From NCBI RefSeq assembly GCF_011059185.1, contig NZ_JAALFE010000012.1:40563-104562 (forward strand): a stretch of DNA of 64,000 nt. Reading direction: 5' to 3'. The stretch's first letter is position 1; each line of letters begins with the position of its first letter. This DNA comes from Paragemmobacter kunshanensis. GTDB lineage: Bacteria > Pseudomonadota > Alphaproteobacteria > Rhodobacterales > Rhodobacteraceae. The position numbers and the translations under genes were made by a program. This document shows positions 12,144 to 62,578 of this stretch, piece by piece. Below the pieces are notes generated by a model that made no database searches, had not been told where the DNA came from, and saw only the letters and a list, made by a program, of their open reading frames with translations.

Positions 12144-12347
12144 GCGATTTCTGACGCAGAAATCGCGGCGGAAAATGACGCATTTTCCGGGGGCGCGCCC
12201 AGGGAGCGAGGGGTGGTCTGTTTGCGAAAGGGGCAGGGATTTTCCTGAAAATCCCTGCCCTTGCCCTGATCGGGTGCCCCGGATGCGATGCCGGGTGCCA
12301 CCGGTTTTTGTGTCAAAAACCGTTCCGGAAAATGCGTCATTTTCCGG
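12144..12347. repeat. Cluster of five perfect hairpins, mostly with TGACGCA-type core
   Basis: The 261 bp between glyA and the DUF817 gene holds no gene but five perfect inverted repeats. They are 12144-12166 (10-bp arm GCGATTTCTG, loop ACG), 12169-12189 (arm CGGAAAATG, loop ACG), 12231-12260 (14-bp arm GGGCAGGGATTTTC, loop CT), 12302-12322 (arm CGGTTTTTG, loop TGT) and 12325-12347 (arm CCGGAAAATG, loop CGT). Four share the centre TG-NNN-CA. Similar clusters occur at 41621 and 55502. Confidence 0.9.
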
Positions 12348-12359
12348 CACGGTCGGGGA

Positions 12360-13655
12360 TTACAGATCCGGGTAGATCGGGAAGCGCTGGCAGAGGGCCT
12401 CGACCTCGGCCTTCACCTTGGCCTCGACCGCGCTGTTGCCGTCTTCGCCGTTGGCGGCAAGGCCATCGACGACTTCGGTGATCCAGCGGGCGATCTGGCG
12501 GAACTCCGCCTCACCGAAGCCGCGCGTCGTGCCTGCGGGGGTGCCCAGACGGACGCCCGAGGTGATGGTGGGCTTTTCGGTATCGAAGGGGATGCCGTTC
12601 TTGTTGCAGGTGATATGGGCGCGGCCCAGGGCCTTTTCGGTGGCATTGCCCTTCACGCCCTTGGGGCGCAGGTCCACCAGCATAAGATGCGTGTCGGTGC
12701 CGCCGGTGACGATGTCGAGCCCGCCCTTCATCAGCTCATCCGCCAGCGCCTTGGCATTGGCGATGACCTGTTTCTGATAGGTGACGAAGCCGGGTTGCAG
12801 CGCCTCGCCGAAGGCCACGGCCTTTGCGGCGATCACATGCATCAGGGGGCCGCCCTGGATGCCCGGGAAGATGGCGGAATTGACCTTCTTCGCGATCTCT
12901 TCGCTGTCGGTCAGGATCATCCCGCCGCGCGGGCCGCGCAGGGTTTTATGCGTGGTGGTGGTGGCGACATGGGCATGCGGGAAGGGCGAGGGGTAGAGGC
13001 CCGCCGCCACGAGGCCCGCGAAATGTGCCATGTCCACAAGGAGATAGGCGCCGACCGAGTCGGCGATTTCGCGCATGCGCTTGAAATCGATCACCCGCGG
13101 GATGGCGGAGCCGCCGGCGATGATCAGCTTCGGCTTGTGCTCGGCCGCCAGTTCGGCGACCTGGTCATAGTTCAGTTCCAGATCCTGCTTGCGCACGCCG
13201 TATTGCACGGCCTTGAACCACTTGCCCGACTGGTTGGGGGCCGCGCCATGCGTCAGGTGGCCGCCCGCATCGAGCGACATGCCGAGGATGGTGTCGCCGG
13301 GCTGGATCAGCGCCTGGAACACGCCCTGGTTGGCCTGCGAACCGGAGTTCGGCTGCACGTTGGCAAAGCCGCAACCGAACAGCTTGCAGGCCCGTTCGAT
13401 CGCCAGATTTTCAGCGATATCAACGTATTGGCAGCCGCCATAATAGCGCTTGCCGGGATAGCCTTCGGCATATTTGTTGGTCATCACCGACCCTTGCGCT
13501 TCCATCACGGCGCGGGAGACGATGTTTTCCGAGGCGATCAGTTCGATCTCGTGCCGCTGGCGGCCAAGTTCCTGGGTGATCGCGCCGAAGAGTTCGGCAT
13601 CGCGGGTGGCGAGCGGTTCGGTGAAGAATCCGGTGTCGCGGTGGGGGGCGTTCAT
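12360..13655 (-). CDS. glyA: Serine hydroxymethyltransferase GlyA
   Basis: A 431-residue, full-length SHMT that interconverts serine and tetrahydrofolate with glycine and 5,10-methylene-THF using PLP. Conserved features are [10 protein letters not shown], the [13 protein letters not shown] substrate loop, [15 protein letters not shown] and the PLP lysine in [17 protein letters not shown] 13655 is preferred over GTG 13661 because GAGGAG is correctly spaced only from the ATG. It is transcribed alone from a short leader; no riboswitch was recognised. The 3' flank is the hairpin cluster at 12144-12347. Confidence 0.97.
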
Positions 13656-24898: not shown

Positions 24899-25099
24899 GC
24901 GATTTTTCTGCGAAAAATCAGGGGGCTGTCTGCCCCCTCTTGGCCTGCGGCCAATTCACCCCCGAGGATATTTCAGGAACAGATGAAACAGGGGCGAGGG
25001 TTCTTTGTTCATCTGTTCGGCAAATATCCTGCAGGGGGTGAGGCGCGGCACGCGCCGAGGGGGACGCAAAGTCCCCCAGATTTTTCGCAGAAAAATCGT
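24899..25099. repeat. 200-bp imperfect palindrome bounded by GATTTTTC hairpins
   Basis: The spacer between the cupin gene and cdd begins with a hairpin (24901-24919, arm GATTTTTC, loop TGC) and ends with its inverse (25079-25097, same arm, loop GCA). Between them are nested inverted segments, including CCCCCGAGGATATTT against AAATATCCTGCAGGGGG and GAACAGATGAA against TTCATCTGTTC. It is a relative of the palindromic elements at 43568, 49768 and 58001. Confidence 0.85.
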
Positions 25100-34950: not shown

Positions 34951-34994
34951 CAAAAATCTTCGAAGATTTTTGCAAATTTCTTCGAAGAAATTTG
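34951..34994. terminator. Two adjacent TTCGAA-centred palindromes between convergent genes
   Basis: 34951-34972 has 11-bp arms beginning CAAAAATCTTC, and 34973-34994 has 11-bp arms beginning CAAATTTCTTC; both are perfect and centred on TTCGAA, and both end in runs of T on each strand. They lie between the 3' ends of the DMT transporter and tdk, so a bidirectional terminator role is reasonable. Confidence 0.65.
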
Positions 34995-41100: not shown

Positions 41101-41499
41101 GCGGAACAGTTTCCGGTCTTCGGCCATCTCGATGGCCTGCCGGTTGGCGCCGATCAGTTGCACGCCGAACTGTTCCAGCACGCCCATATCGGCCAGCGCC
41201 AGCGCGGTGTTCAGCCCGGTCTGCCCGCCCATGGTGGGCAGGAGCGCGTCGGGGCGTTCCTTTTCGATGATCTTGGCCACCACTTCCGGGGTGATGGGTT
41301 CGATATAGGTGGCATCGGCAAGGCCCGGATCCGTCATGATCGTCGCGGGGTTCGAGTTGACGAGGATGACGCGGTAGCCTTCCTCCCGCAGGGCCTTGCA
41401 AGCCTGTGCGCCGGAGTAGTCGAATTCGCAGGCCTGCCCGATGACGATGGGACCGGCGCCGATGATCATGATGGAGGAGATATCGGTTCTTTTCGGCAT
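38170..41499 (-). CDS. carB: Carbamoyl-phosphate synthase large subunit
   Basis: A 1109-residue CarB that makes carbamoyl phosphate for arginine and pyrimidines from bicarbonate, ATP and CarA-derived ammonia. Two homologous ATP-grasp halves are visible, each with a pre-ATP-grasp start ([19 protein letters not shown] and [19 protein letters not shown]) and an [20 protein letters not shown]-like metal site; a C-terminal MGS-like allosteric domain (from about residue 970) follows. ATG 41499 ([14 protein letters not shown]) is the family start. carA is not in the window. It is divergent from pabB across a hairpin cluster. Confidence 0.97.
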
Positions 41500-41620
41500 G
41501 GTCCTGTCCCGCATGTGCCATCCCGCAGCATGAGTGCAGCGGGTGGAGGATTCGTGCTTCGCGCAAATTGACGGGGGTTTAGGGGAGTGGGGGCTGCTGC
41601 GCAAGCGGTTGTGGTGGTCA

Positions 41621-41742
41621 GCGATTTCTGACGCAGAAATCGCGCAAAATTCTGACGCAGAATTTTGCTGGGGGCTGGTGTCGCGCGGTTGGGGGGCGAA
41701 ATCTGCGTCAGATTTCGGCGCATTTTCTGCGTCAGAAAATGC
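41621..41742. repeat. Cluster of four TGACGCA-core hairpins
   Basis: Four perfect hairpins lie in the 341-bp gap between the divergent starts of carB and pabB: 41621-41643 (arm GCGATTTCTG, loop ACG; identical to the one at 12144), 41644-41668 (11-bp arm GCAAAATTCTG, loop ACG), 41697-41717 (arm CGAAATCTG, loop CGT) and 41720-41742 (arm GCATTTTCTG, loop CGT). The location between two gene starts argues against a simple terminator role. No gene lies in the gap. Confidence 0.92.
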
Positions 41743-41840
41743 CTGCGCGGGCGGATCGGGGCGGCAAGGCGTCGCGGCTGGGCTGGTCGGGGGGTGGGGG
41801 CGGTGCTATCTCGGCCCGCGATGGAACGGAGTGGGCTTGC

Positions 41841-42980
41841 GTGATCCTTTTCGAACATGGTCCGGGCGGGGTGCCTGCGCTTTTCGACGGCGCGCGCGAG
41901 GTGATCGTGGCGCGGCGGGCGGATCAGGTGCGCGCCGCTTTGGCCCGTGCCGACCGGGCGCGGGCGGCGGGGGCCTGGGTTGCGGGCTATGTCGCCTATG
42001 AGGCGGGCTATGCGCTGGAGCCGCGTCTGGCGCGGCTGATGCCCGCGCGGCGGCCTGCGCCGCTGGTCCTGCTGGGGGTGTTCGACGGGCCGGTTGACGC
42101 GGGCGCGCTGCTGGCGCGGGCGGCGGAAGAGGCGGGGGCGGCGCGGCTGTCGCGCCTACGGCGCGGGATCAGCCGCGCGGCCTATGGCGCGGCGATGGCG
42201 CGGGTGATGGGCTATATCGCCGCCGGGGATTGCTATCAGATCAACCTGACCTTCCCGCTTTCGGCGCGGCTGGAGGGTGGCACGGCGCTGGGTCTCTATG
42301 GCGCGCTGCGGGCGCGGCAGGCGGTGGGATACGGCGTCTTCTGCGATCTGGGCGCGGGGCCGGTGGTCATGTCGCGGTCGCCCGAGTTGTTCTTCCGGGT
42401 GGAGGGGGGCGTGATTTCCGCCCGGCCCATGAAGGGGACCGCGCCGCGCGATGCGGACCCCGCGCGGGATGCTGCGCTGGCGGCGGAGTTGTTCGCATCC
42501 GAGAAGGCGCGGGCGGAGAACCTGATGATCGTGGATCTGCTGCGCAACGACATCGCGCGGATCTCCGAGGTCGGGTCGGTGAAGGTGCCGGAGCTTTATG
42601 CGGTGGAGCCTTTCGCGACGGTGCATCAGATGAGTTCGACCGTGACGGGGCGGCTGGTGGCTGGGGCCGATCTGGCGGGGCTGATGGCGGCGCTGTTTCC
42701 CTGCGGGTCGATCACGGGGGCGCCGAAGATCCGCGCGATGGAGATCATCCGTGAGGTCGAGGGGCGCGCGCGGGGCGTCTATTGCGGGGCGATGGGTTGG
42801 ATGGCGCCTTCGGGCGATGCAGTGTGGAACGTGGCGATCCGCACGCTGTCGCTGTTTCCGGGCGGGCGCGTGGTGCTGAACGTGGGCGGGGGGGTGGTGC
42901 AGGACAGCACCGCCGATGGCGAATGGGAGGAGGCGCTGTGGAAGGCGCGCTACGCGGAGGGGCTGGCGACGTCCGGCTGA
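41841..42980 (+). CDS. pabB: Aminodeoxychorismate synthase component I
   Basis: A 379-residue chorismate-utilising enzyme that makes 4-amino-4-deoxychorismate for folate. Conserved blocks are the YIAAGDCYQINLTFPLSARL substrate segment, ARPMKGTAPR, ENLMIVDLLRNDIAR, MSSTVTGRL and CGSITGAPKIRAMEII. It is shorter at the N-terminus than E. coli PabB, as is common for alphaproteobacterial forms. GTG 41841 is chosen (GGAG 9 bases upstream); the open frame to 41739 runs through the hairpin cluster and is not homologous. pabC overlaps its end by 43 bp. Confidence 0.93.
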   Translation: MILFEHGPGGVPALFDGAREVIVARRADQVRAALARADRARAAGAWVAGYVAYEAGYALEPRLARLMPARRPAPLVLLGVFDGPVDAGALLARAAEEAGAARLSRLRRGISRAAYGAAMARVMGYIAAGDCYQINLTFPLSARLEGGTALGLYGALRARQAVGYGVFCDLGAGPVVMSRSPELFFRVEGGVISARPMKGTAPRDADPARDAALAAELFASEKARAENLMIVDLLRNDIARISEVGSVKVPELYAVEPFATVHQMSSTVTGRLVAGADLAGLMAALFPCGSITGAPKIRAMEIIREVEGRARGVYCGAMGWMAPSGDAVWNVAIRTLSLFPGGRVVLNVGGGVVQDSTADGEWEEALWKARYAEGLATSG

Positions 42981-49767: not shown

Positions 49768-50043
49768 GATCCGGCGGAGCGGCGTGCCGCCGCAAGGTTT
49801 TCCTCTCGCCTGCGCGCCTGCGCGCTTCGGCTCGGTTGCCGGGGGTTCCCCCCGGACCCCCGGGGTATTTGGGCCAAGATGAAGTGGCATGGTCTTCATC
49901 TTGGGAAAAATACCCTCGGGGGTGAATTGGCCCGCGAAGCGGGACAAGAGGGGGCGGAACGCCCCCTGAACACCGAGCCGGACGCGCGGCACGCGCGGGA
50001 GGCGAGAGGAAAGGCTTGCGGCGGCACGCCGCTCCGCCGGATC
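49768..50043. repeat. 276-bp palindromic element with perfect 29-bp terminal inverted repeats
   Basis: The left terminus 49768-49796 (starts GATCCGGCGGAGCGGCG) and the right terminus 50015-50043 are perfect inverses over 29 bp; pairing continues inward through TTTTCCTCTCGCC. The centre (49862-49922) pairs GGTATTTGGGCCAAGATGAAG with CTTCATCTTGGGAAAAATACC. The right end supplies the first two bases of the stop codon of the EI24 gene. It has no ORF for a transposase. A close copy is at 58001-58267. Confidence 0.92.
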
Positions 50044-55501: not shown

Positions 55502-55757
55502 GCGATTTCTGACGCAGAAATCGCGTCGGAATTTGGCGCAAATTCCGGGTGGCAGGCCGGTTGCGGCCTGCGGGGACGGGGGAGGATTGCGTCGGCTGTC
55601 ACTTTCTGCCCCTGCTTGTGGTTCGCGTGGCCTCGCTGGTGATCCTGATCGGCCAGGCGATTTCTGACGCAGAAATCGCGTCGGAATTTGGCGCAAATTC
55701 CGGCTTGGGCACCGTTTCCTGCGTCAGGAAACGGCGCGAAATCTGCGTCAGATTTCG
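55471..55757. repeat. TGACGCA-core hairpin cluster with duplication of the dgkA tail
   Basis: Six hairpins lie between the convergent dgkA and DUF393 genes: 55502-55524 and 55657-55679 (arm GCGATTTCTG, loop ACG), 55527-55547 and 55682-55702 (arm CGGAATTTG, loop GCG), 55712-55734 (arm CCGTTTCCTG, loop CGT) and 55737-55757 (arm CGAAATCTG, loop CGT). Block 55471-55548 is repeated at 55626-55703 with four mismatches; the copy carries the last codons of dgkA with TAG changed to CAG. No gene lies in 55502-55842. Confidence 0.92.
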
Positions 55758-55842
55758 CCCTCGCGCGGGTGCCGGGCAGAAGAGGGGCGTTCCAGTCCAG
55801 GGGGGGCGGGTTTGCAACGCGTGGGGCGCGCTGCGCCCCGGG

Positions 55843-58000: not shown

Positions 58001-58267
58001 GATCTGGCGGAGCGGCGTGCCGCCGCAAGGTTTTCCTCTCGCCTGCGCGCCTGCGCGCTTCGGCTCGGTCGCCGGGGGTTCCCCCCGGACCCCCTGGGTA
58101 TTTGGGCCAAGATGAAGCGGCATGGTCTTCATCTTGGGGAAAATACCCTCGGGGGTGAATTGGCCCGCGAAGCGGGACAAGAGGGGGCGCGAGCGCCCCC
58201 TAACATCCGAGCCGGAGCGGATGCGGAGGCGAGAGGAAAGGCTTGCGTGGAACACGCGCAATCGGAT
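58001..58267. repeat. Second long copy of the palindromic element
   Basis: This copy is nearly identical to 49768-50043 through its left half (GATCTGGCGGAGCGGCG onward, CTCGCCTGCGCGCCTGCGCG, GGTATTTGGGCCAAGATGAAG) and centre (CTTCATCTTGGGGAAAATACC). Its right end has diverged (CTTGCGTGGAACACGCGC), so the terminal inverted repeat is no longer perfect. It lies between the start of rimO and the hydroxyacid dehydrogenase gene. No gene is present in 57958-58332. Confidence 0.9.
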
Positions 58268-61439: not shown

Positions 61440-61510
61440 GATTTTTCTCGCGAAAAATCCGGGGATCCTTCCGGGGAAGGATCCCTTGGCGAAATTTCGC
61501 AGAAATTTCG
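61440..61510. terminator. Three hairpins after the AsmA gene
   Basis: 61440-61459 (arm GATTTTTC, loop TCGC), 61462-61485 (9-bp arm GGGATCCTT) and 61490-61510 (9-bp arm CGAAATTTC, loop GCA) follow the asmA-like stop and precede speB. The arrangement resembles the spacers at 24899 and 62531. Termination is plausible, though the hairpins also sit just upstream of the speB ribosome site. Confidence 0.6.
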
Positions 61511-62530: not shown

Positions 62531-62578
62531 CGATTTTGTCTCGCGAAAAATCAGGCGATCCTTCGGGGAAGGATCGCC
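62531..62578. terminator. Hairpins between convergent speB and gcrA
   Basis: An imperfect GATTTT/AAAAATC stem (about 62531-62552) is followed by a perfect hairpin at 62554-62578 with 10-bp arms GGCGATCCTT. They are placed between the 3' ends of speB and gcrA, consistent with bidirectional termination. Confidence 0.6.

Follow-up and report, generated by a model that had tools for sequence, protein, structure and literature searches.

The perfect hairpins with a TG-NNN-CA centre that recur between the genes of Paragemmobacter kunshanensis are best accounted for as a REP/BIME-like family of DNA hairpins at gene ends, in which the inherited unit is a pair of hairpins at a pitch of 24 bp. The property that is passed on would then be a DNA hairpin structure and not the sequence of its arms: the unit would consist of two perfect hairpins of around 23 nt with their cores 24 bp apart, and within the genus two such units would usually face each other. 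What was observed directly is that the stems at orthologous loci change in a compensated way, that pitch and loop are nearly fixed, that the two halves carry their cores in mirrored orientation, that the elements adjoin stop codons and that equal arms are avoided within a half. The first-pass annotation of this DNA had taken the hairpins for a selected structure or for a site with a fixed core. Its interpretation is partly supported overall, and the 24-bp core pitch, the mirrored halves and the abutment on stop codons in most cases go beyond what it had claimed.

Hairpins of the window and plan of the element

The window, i.e. the whole stretch of 64,000 nt that was analyzed, has a GC content of 68.6%. 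Among its perfect hairpins whose arms measure 8 bp or more, 14 had a TG-NNN-CA centre, spread over three clusters, with ACG (6), CGT (5), GCG (2) or TGT (1) as the central triplet. The earlier count of four out of five hairpins at 12144-12347 and ten elsewhere was thereby reproduced (four at 41621-41742 and six at 55502-55758), and the count dropped to 0 in the control, for which each sequence set was subjected to one dinucleotide shuffle. The same enrichment was found in 400 kb of the P. kunshanensis genome (G000; 27 hairpins, including a few with other loops, vs 2 after shuffling) and in 400 kb of a relative (G008; 61 vs 0), the G008 stretches having been chosen to contain matches. Gene starts and ends were derived with our own codon-usage caller and not from the annotation (62 genes and 87% coding in the window); together with Pfam these calls agree with the positions that had been described for the clusters, namely after a gene, between divergent starts and between convergent ends.

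Element 1 (12144-12347, like the other two without an assigned strand) is a four-hairpin element that follows glyA, a minus-strand gene with its stop at 12360, and lies upstream of a DUF817 gene. The plus-strand hairpin at 12144-12166 (arms GCGATTTC/GAAATCGC) is followed by one at 12169-12189 (arms CGGAAAA/TTTTCCG), both with the core TGACGCA and with the second core 24 bp from the first. The hairpins at 12302-12322 and 12325-12347 have the cores TGTGTCA and TGCGTCA, which read TGACACA and TGACGCA on the minus strand. The spacer holds a minus-strand hairpin outside the family (12231-12260; 13-bp stem and four-base loop CCTG), which by eye is terminator-like in the direction of glyA. Element 2 (41621-41742) is located between the divergent genes for carbamoyl-phosphate synthase and a chorismate-binding enzyme, a minority context among the elements, and has its four hairpins at 41621-41643, 41644-41668, 41697-41717 and 41720-41742. 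Element 3 (55502-55758) lies in a convergent gap between a diacylglycerol kinase gene and a DCC1-like gene and begins immediately past the TAG stop codon of the former. It contains six TG-NNN-CA hairpins, as the left half is present in two copies with an offset of 155 bp (55502-55547 and 55657-55702), followed by the right half at 55712-55734 and 55736-55758.

Rather than being independent, the TG-NNN-CA hairpins belong together as parts of a single element. Its plan is H1-H2-spacer-H3-H4, with TGACGCA on the plus strand in H1 and H2 and on the minus strand in H3 and H4. Neighbouring hairpins with the same loop had their cores 24 bp apart in 31 out of 33 cases, the exceptions being one distance of 25 and one of 116 across a tandem duplication, and across nine genomes the 79 full elements had distances between the cores of H2 and H3 of 25 to 133 (37 to 52 in 63 of these). 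The paired stem comprises seven to eight bases outside the closing TG/CA, giving approximately C-G-(five variable bases)-TG-ACG-CA. Within the full set of 132 elements, which includes orthologues of one another, the cores of the 479 hairpins were mostly TGACGCA (367), TGGCGCA (49) or TGACACA (42); seven perfect pairs were present in 436 hairpins, with 47 distinct arms among them. The 5' arm can be A-rich or T-rich, and stem pair 4, in the middle of the stem, was A/T in 471 of the 474 paired cells, and this in a GC-rich genome.

Some further features of the sequence can be mentioned. Within the five variable arm bases purines come first and pyrimidines after, and a pyrimidine-to-purine step occurred in 13 of the 436 hairpins, compared to a column-shuffled mean of 155. 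The 158 outer flanks that were examined are weakly purine-rich and show no conserved unpaired GTAG or CGTC tag at the stem end; the string CGTC was found solely within the core TGCGTCA, i.e. in the loop. An outer closing helix (GGGRAG/CTTCCC) was considered and rejected, as flanks of the same element paired worse than shuffled partners (mean run 2.19 vs 2.54), and folding of the spacer was not convincing (mean z of -0.62 across 70 spacers). Two loci (L057 and L058) hold an element of two hairpins with opposed cores, TGACGCA and then TGCGTCA, 24 bp apart, which resembles the outcome of an inner deletion; locus L049 of genome G014 resembles this form by eye.

Compensated stems and unequal neighbours

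Covariation was assessed on orthologous loci, which is a stronger test than an alignment of 121 halves, and on such an alignment as well. Flank similarity linked 81 pairs of elements across genomes, and in 36 pairs both elements were full, giving 144 hairpin pairs or, over seven base pairs, 1008 cells. There were 912 identical cells, 67 compensated ones (changed on both sides and still paired) and 29 uncompensated ones (17 one-sided mismatches, 8 wobbles and 4 others). Exactly one compensated base pair and no other difference was found in 24 of the 144 hairpin pairs, and H1 of element 2 differs from its orthologue in G002 by a single compensated change. With one pair per orthology group and with the pair L019/L055 omitted, 35 compensated and 9 uncompensated cells were counted among 560 cells from 20 groups. 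The omitted pair supplies 6 of the 67 compensated cells, so that 61 compensated and 28 uncompensated ones are left without it. In this pair of orthologues from G000 and G006 (L019:1472-1586 and L055:1430-1542) the inner hairpins H2 and H3 seem exchanged, as in an inner inversion.

In the alignment (A1) each orthology group was represented by a single half for either side (121 of the 123 halves prepared, two halves of genome G318 being omitted). In these distinct halves 97.4% of the 2420 cells were paired, a share that is flattered by the detection rule, since this requires most stem pairs and lets poorly paired hairpins escape. Cells changed on both sides numbered 514, compared to a shuffled mean of 163, and none of 500 shuffles reached 514; the covariation score was 0.542 vs 0.158 after shuffling, and pairing fell to 25-57% when the partner was shifted by one to three columns. 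The claim that pairing is kept and sequence is not was thus borne out on both sets, and the arm covariation that had been anticipated for relatives appears as an excess of compensated over uncompensated stem changes at orthologous loci. With respect to the two origins that had been offered, the structure is indeed kept, whereas a recombination site with protein-bound arms fits poorly, since it is the arms that vary, and they do so in matched pairs. The elements present a clear natural case, on a bacterial chromosome, of a nucleic-acid shape that is inherited at fixed sites while its stem sequence is renewed through matching changes on both sides.

The predominance of compensated changes would also be expected if the hairpins had no function and old palindromes were kept perfect by quasi-palindrome correction through template switching alone. 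The eight-base centres point in the same direction: 19 out of 21 are TGCACGCA or TGCGCGCA, palindromes that were made more perfect, as template-switch copying between the arms would do. These centres share few arms and may therefore be one old subfamily. Considering that correction alone predicts neither the 24-bp pitch nor the constant asymmetric loop and the mirrored cores, and neither the adjacency to stop codons nor the avoidance of equal arms, we deem an explanation without function very improbable.

The two hairpins within a half were never equal. When the five variable bases were compared, 0 of 208 halves had equal arms, where 19.7 were expected and the smallest of 20000 permutations gave 7; when each orthology group contributed one half for either side, the numbers were 0 of 129 vs 11.8 expected. 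Neighbouring hairpins therefore must differ. Equal neighbours would either mispair or get lost as direct repeats. According to PMC3733652, unequal partners are preferred in most families of REP dimers as well, for which protection from SbcCD-type removal was proposed as the reason. The rule that arms are not shared within a half provides a testable reason for their variability.

Arms were also compared between opposite halves; the P values given are not corrected for six tests. The inner hairpins were equal less often than expected (3.0 vs 6.9, P 0.046), an outer arm and the opposite inner arm were equal more often (10.9 vs 4.9, P 0.008, and 8.6 vs 4.5, P 0.038), and the outer arms showed nothing (4.0 vs 5.1 expected). 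The excess of equal outer and opposite inner arms, as well as the fact that the cores of the two halves are exact complements, would suit a loop-loop kissing interaction, in which TGACGCA would pair with TGCGTCA, so that the element would be closed up as a bundle. The loops, however, do not covary: in 79 elements loop variants lacked significant covariation in each of the six slot pairs, and H1 and H3 were both variant in 0 cases where 3.2 were expected. We consider kissing hardly credible and have dropped it.

Position at gene ends and the level of pairing

The genomic context was established for 115 elements in four genomes (G000, G002, G006 and G008), of which one that had no gene on one side was omitted. 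The remaining 114 comprised 47 convergent, 53 tandem and 14 divergent cases (29, 30 and 8 when the 67 orthology groups were represented by one element each). The background of 326 gaps of at least 100 bp, drawn from 464 kb of G000 and from 400 kb of G008 that were chosen around matches, included 55 convergent and 102 divergent ones. A facing gene end was present for 100 elements; 76 of these started at most 8 nt from the nearest facing stop codon or overlapped it, and 13 started more than 20 nt away. Tandem elements were nearer to the 3' end than to the next start in 52 out of 53 cases, and the TGA of a core serves as the stop codon itself in 21 of the 147 facing gene ends. TAG stops are over-represented beside the elements (36 of 97, core-TGA cases omitted, vs 54 of 428 in the background), an excess that may reflect a purine-purine-G flank.

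Such tight adjacency to stop codons speaks against a role at the DNA level, as it is more easily explained by a function in RNA. Hairpins in the mRNA just past the stop codon would terminate transcription or block exonucleases, and convergent genes would share a mirrored copy. The predicted RNA folds agree with this, as both hairpins form in 206 of 208 halves. In addition, a crude U-tract finder reported terminator-like sites at 35 of 115 gene ends with an element within 40 nt, compared to 39 of 335 background ends; around 8 of 12 inspected examples counted the arm of the neighbouring hairpin as a tract. A U-tract replacement test was dropped because the finder is too crude; taken at face value, the excess near elements speaks for the RNA explanation.

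The mismatches in the stems point elsewhere. Over 3353 stem cells, read in the direction of TGACGCA, we counted 16 G-T, 13 A-C and 25 other mismatches. In the halves that face a gene, G-T (7) was not above A-C (10), and the distal and divergent halves had 6 and 2, respectively. In the terminators of Bacillus cereus, for which selection acts on the RNA (PMC5381666), switches between AU and GC went via GU in 68 cases and via AC in 8, with GU as the main intermediate at around 4% of the inferred ancestral pairs. The ratio of 16:13 differs from 68:8 with a binomial P of 2.6e-6, calculated on 29 mismatches of which some are common to orthologues. Given that G-T hardly exceeds A-C, unlike in RNA terminators, it is apparently in DNA that the pairing is maintained, and on these sequence counts the stems appear to be policed at that level. 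The comparison of G-T with A-C per strand can tell pairing at the DNA level from pairing at the RNA level and could be applied to other repeats as well.

The other differences from intrinsic terminators are in line with the earlier statement that the hairpins are 'not just terminators'. These are alike in that they are gene-end hairpins, in some cases bidirectional, which can be shared by convergent genes and show compensated stem changes (PMC5381666). In that paper most changed pairs are altered on one side, whereas 67 of the 96 changed pairs in the present element were altered on both and still paired, and GU makes up around 4% of ancestral pairs vs 0.5% here. The element has no constant U-tract. 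An A/T pair in mid-stem, in a window with 68.6% GC, hardly suggests selection for maximal RNA stability, for which G/C would be better, and neither does the occurrence of both A-rich and T-rich 5' arms fit a role in RNA. Of the 114 elements, 14 are divergent, and the G008 element after glyA sits beyond a U-tract terminator; such positions count against the RNA explanation, and they weigh against a DNA boundary at the ends of transcription units as well. A Rho rut-like spacer was rejected, as spacers have no bias of C over G in the gene direction (17 positive and 20 negative out of 38).

In tandem elements the far half comprised 107 hairpins with 76 exact cores and 10 of 749 cells unpaired, compared to 102 hairpins with 80 exact cores and 17 of 714 cells unpaired for the near half; in three-hairpin elements the missing hairpin belonged to the far half in 7 cases and to the near half in 4. 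The far half being about as intact as the near one, the whole element seems to be kept and not a 3'-UTR piece alone. Based on the above, we regard a role of the hairpins at RNA 3' ends as possible but rather doubtful. It should be added that the DNA and RNA readings are not exclusive, because copying at the DNA level could maintain hairpins that work in RNA.

The reading that we prefer, tentatively and short of calling it probable, is that the element acts in DNA at the ends of transcription units, where it would form a structural boundary or a dock for a protein. Upon strand separation each palindrome would fold on its own strand and display its loop, and a putative factor would read the pair of loops at the gene end from either side. 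The stems may be kept perfect with the aid of template switching, by which one arm is copied from the other as the DNA replicates, and a difference between neighbouring arms would let the hairpins fold separately and prevent their deletion as direct repeats.

Spread, history and relation to known repeats

The exact pattern TGACGCA-N17-TGACGCA occurs 36 times in the 4.46 Mb of G000 (reversed control 0) and 18 times in G002. The sequence TTCTGACGCAGAA has 38 copies in G000 (reversed control 0) and was present in all 19 genomes of the genus; outside the genus it was found in 6 of 42 genomes, once in each, with the reversed control in 3 of 42. Allowing up to two mismatches in the spaced pattern gave 135 matches in G000 vs 33 reversed, and the looser matches therefore include chance ones. 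The exact spaced pattern was recovered from 17 of 295 family genomes; 15 of these belong to other genera, for which the comparison with the reversed control is 15 vs 5 of 293. Matches from two of these 15 genomes were folded: the match in G091 did not form hairpins, and the two exact matches in G318 form four-hairpin elements that adjoin stop codons. Pattern matches are also present in G336, which belongs to the same genus as G318. Beyond the four genomes used for the context analysis, the sample of elements was confined to loci that a search had returned; the close pair G007/G018 yielded three halves in around 266 kb.

A covariance model of a half had hits at E<=0.001 in 19 of 198 family genomes, including 17 of 196 in other genera. 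The best locus held two to four perfect hairpins at a pitch of 23-24 bp in 16 of these 17 genomes and a single hairpin in one. The loops vary between and partly within genomes (GCG, TCG, GCGC, TCGA and others). Hairpin clusters from four other genera had a pitch of 23-25 bp in 19 out of 23 cases, and a facing stop codon lay within 15 nt of 19 of the 23, an adjacency that again suits a role at RNA 3' ends. As the covariance-model loci were found by their structure, their pairing follows from the way in which they were picked, which does not hold for their loops and positions. Rfam 15 gave 0 matches in the window at the gathering score, and at 41400-41900 with E<=10 the one match, sR53, lay outside element 2 and below the cut-off. 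Literature searches of partial coverage returned no description of a four-hairpin element.

Inspection by eye of the glyA loci revealed an ordinary U-tract terminator without an element in most species, a decayed copy in G017 and pairs of hairpins of the CTTCGAAG type in G001 and G014. A pair of the latter type also replaces element 2 at its site in G007 and G018, and different hairpin families therefore occupy the same sites. Given this replacement and the variable loops within G020, the exact loop is not needed everywhere, which tells against the preferred reading. In the window the CTTCGAAG centre occurs in two adjacent perfect hairpins at 34951-34994, with unlike arms and centres 22 bp apart, and similar pairs of this second family were seen at L061:1309 and L067:18815.

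It is conceivable, if unlikely in this full form, that Rhodobacteraceae mark gene ends by a DNA sign consisting of structure only: pairs of hairpins 23-24 bp apart, with loops that vary from genus to genus and with stems that change freely but differ mutually, maintained on DNA by arm-to-arm copying and selection and read by a putative hairpin-binding factor, with loop families interchangeable at the same site. Should the pair at 24-bp pitch serve several genera as a signal at gene ends, it would be a recurrent intergenic component of the Rhodobacteraceae without a known reader.

The elements could also be non-autonomous mobile elements, whose hairpins are recognised in single-stranded DNA by a transposase-like enzyme, as REPs are by RAYTs, and whose insertions survive at gene ends. 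Their presence or absence between species at glyA, the tandem duplications in element 3 and in L094 and the preference for heterodimers in most REP families, mentioned above (PMC3733652), would be compatible with this. Spacers within a genome are mostly unrelated, and two different loci of G008 have 15 of 16 spacer bases in common although three of their four arms differ, which may also be taken as a trace of mobility. Against it, 29 of the 36 G000 elements have an orthologue in another sampled genome, and the copies are therefore old and kept. Five loci aligned with relatives, some of which lack all or part of the element, displayed no clean insertion with target-site duplication, and adjacency to stop codons is not an insertion preference known to us. 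An origin from phages or plasmids was rejected as well: a half had no blastn match in PLSDB, and one other half none in INPHARED; at least 120 stretches in IMG/VR hold the pattern, and among the pattern matches listed 0 of 80 fetched viral loci have a hairpin pair by the detection rule. The RAYT-like protein that the first-pass annotation had suggested did not turn up: the Y1_Tnp domain was absent from G000 and over the cut-off in 0 of the 19 genus genomes, with one sub-threshold match in G009. Mobility is thus quite unlikely to explain the family.

Among known systems, integron attC sites bear a likeness to the present element, being folded single-strand hairpins just past stop codons whose structure is more conserved than their sequence. 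The likeness to REP/BIME/REPIN repeats with their GTAG- or CGTC-tagged palindromes is that of short palindromic extragenic repeats in inverted dimers (PMC3733652). The family shares these REP-like traits (36 exact halves in G000, extragenic and palindromic, and mirrored halves), but it differs by a constant loop core with a variable stem and by the 24-bp pitch. It has no terminal unpaired tag, and no RAYT was found over the cut-off in the genus; with neither the transposase nor the end tag found, it cannot be classified as a RAYT-driven REP. For organellar double-hairpin units we know of no core, pitch or stop-codon rule. Their likeness, judging from a mention in PMC7218506, lies in the two adjacent hairpins that form a dispersed unit.

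Besides these families, the window contains several other repeated hairpins. Those of the type GATTTTTC at 24901-25097, with loops TGC and GCA, are 178 bp apart and mirrored around other inverted repeats; similar hairpins occur at 61490 and at L066:7785 and L070:14767. Three adjacent hairpins with loops TCGC, CGGG and GCA lie at 61440-61510, and a GATCCTTC hairpin at 62554-62578 is related to this run. An 8-bp hairpin that contains CCCGGG and has the loop TCAGG is present in three copies (14863, 38038 and 53046), and the 11-bp hairpin CCAAGATGAAG, with a loop of nine bases, in two (49874-49904 and 58107-58137).
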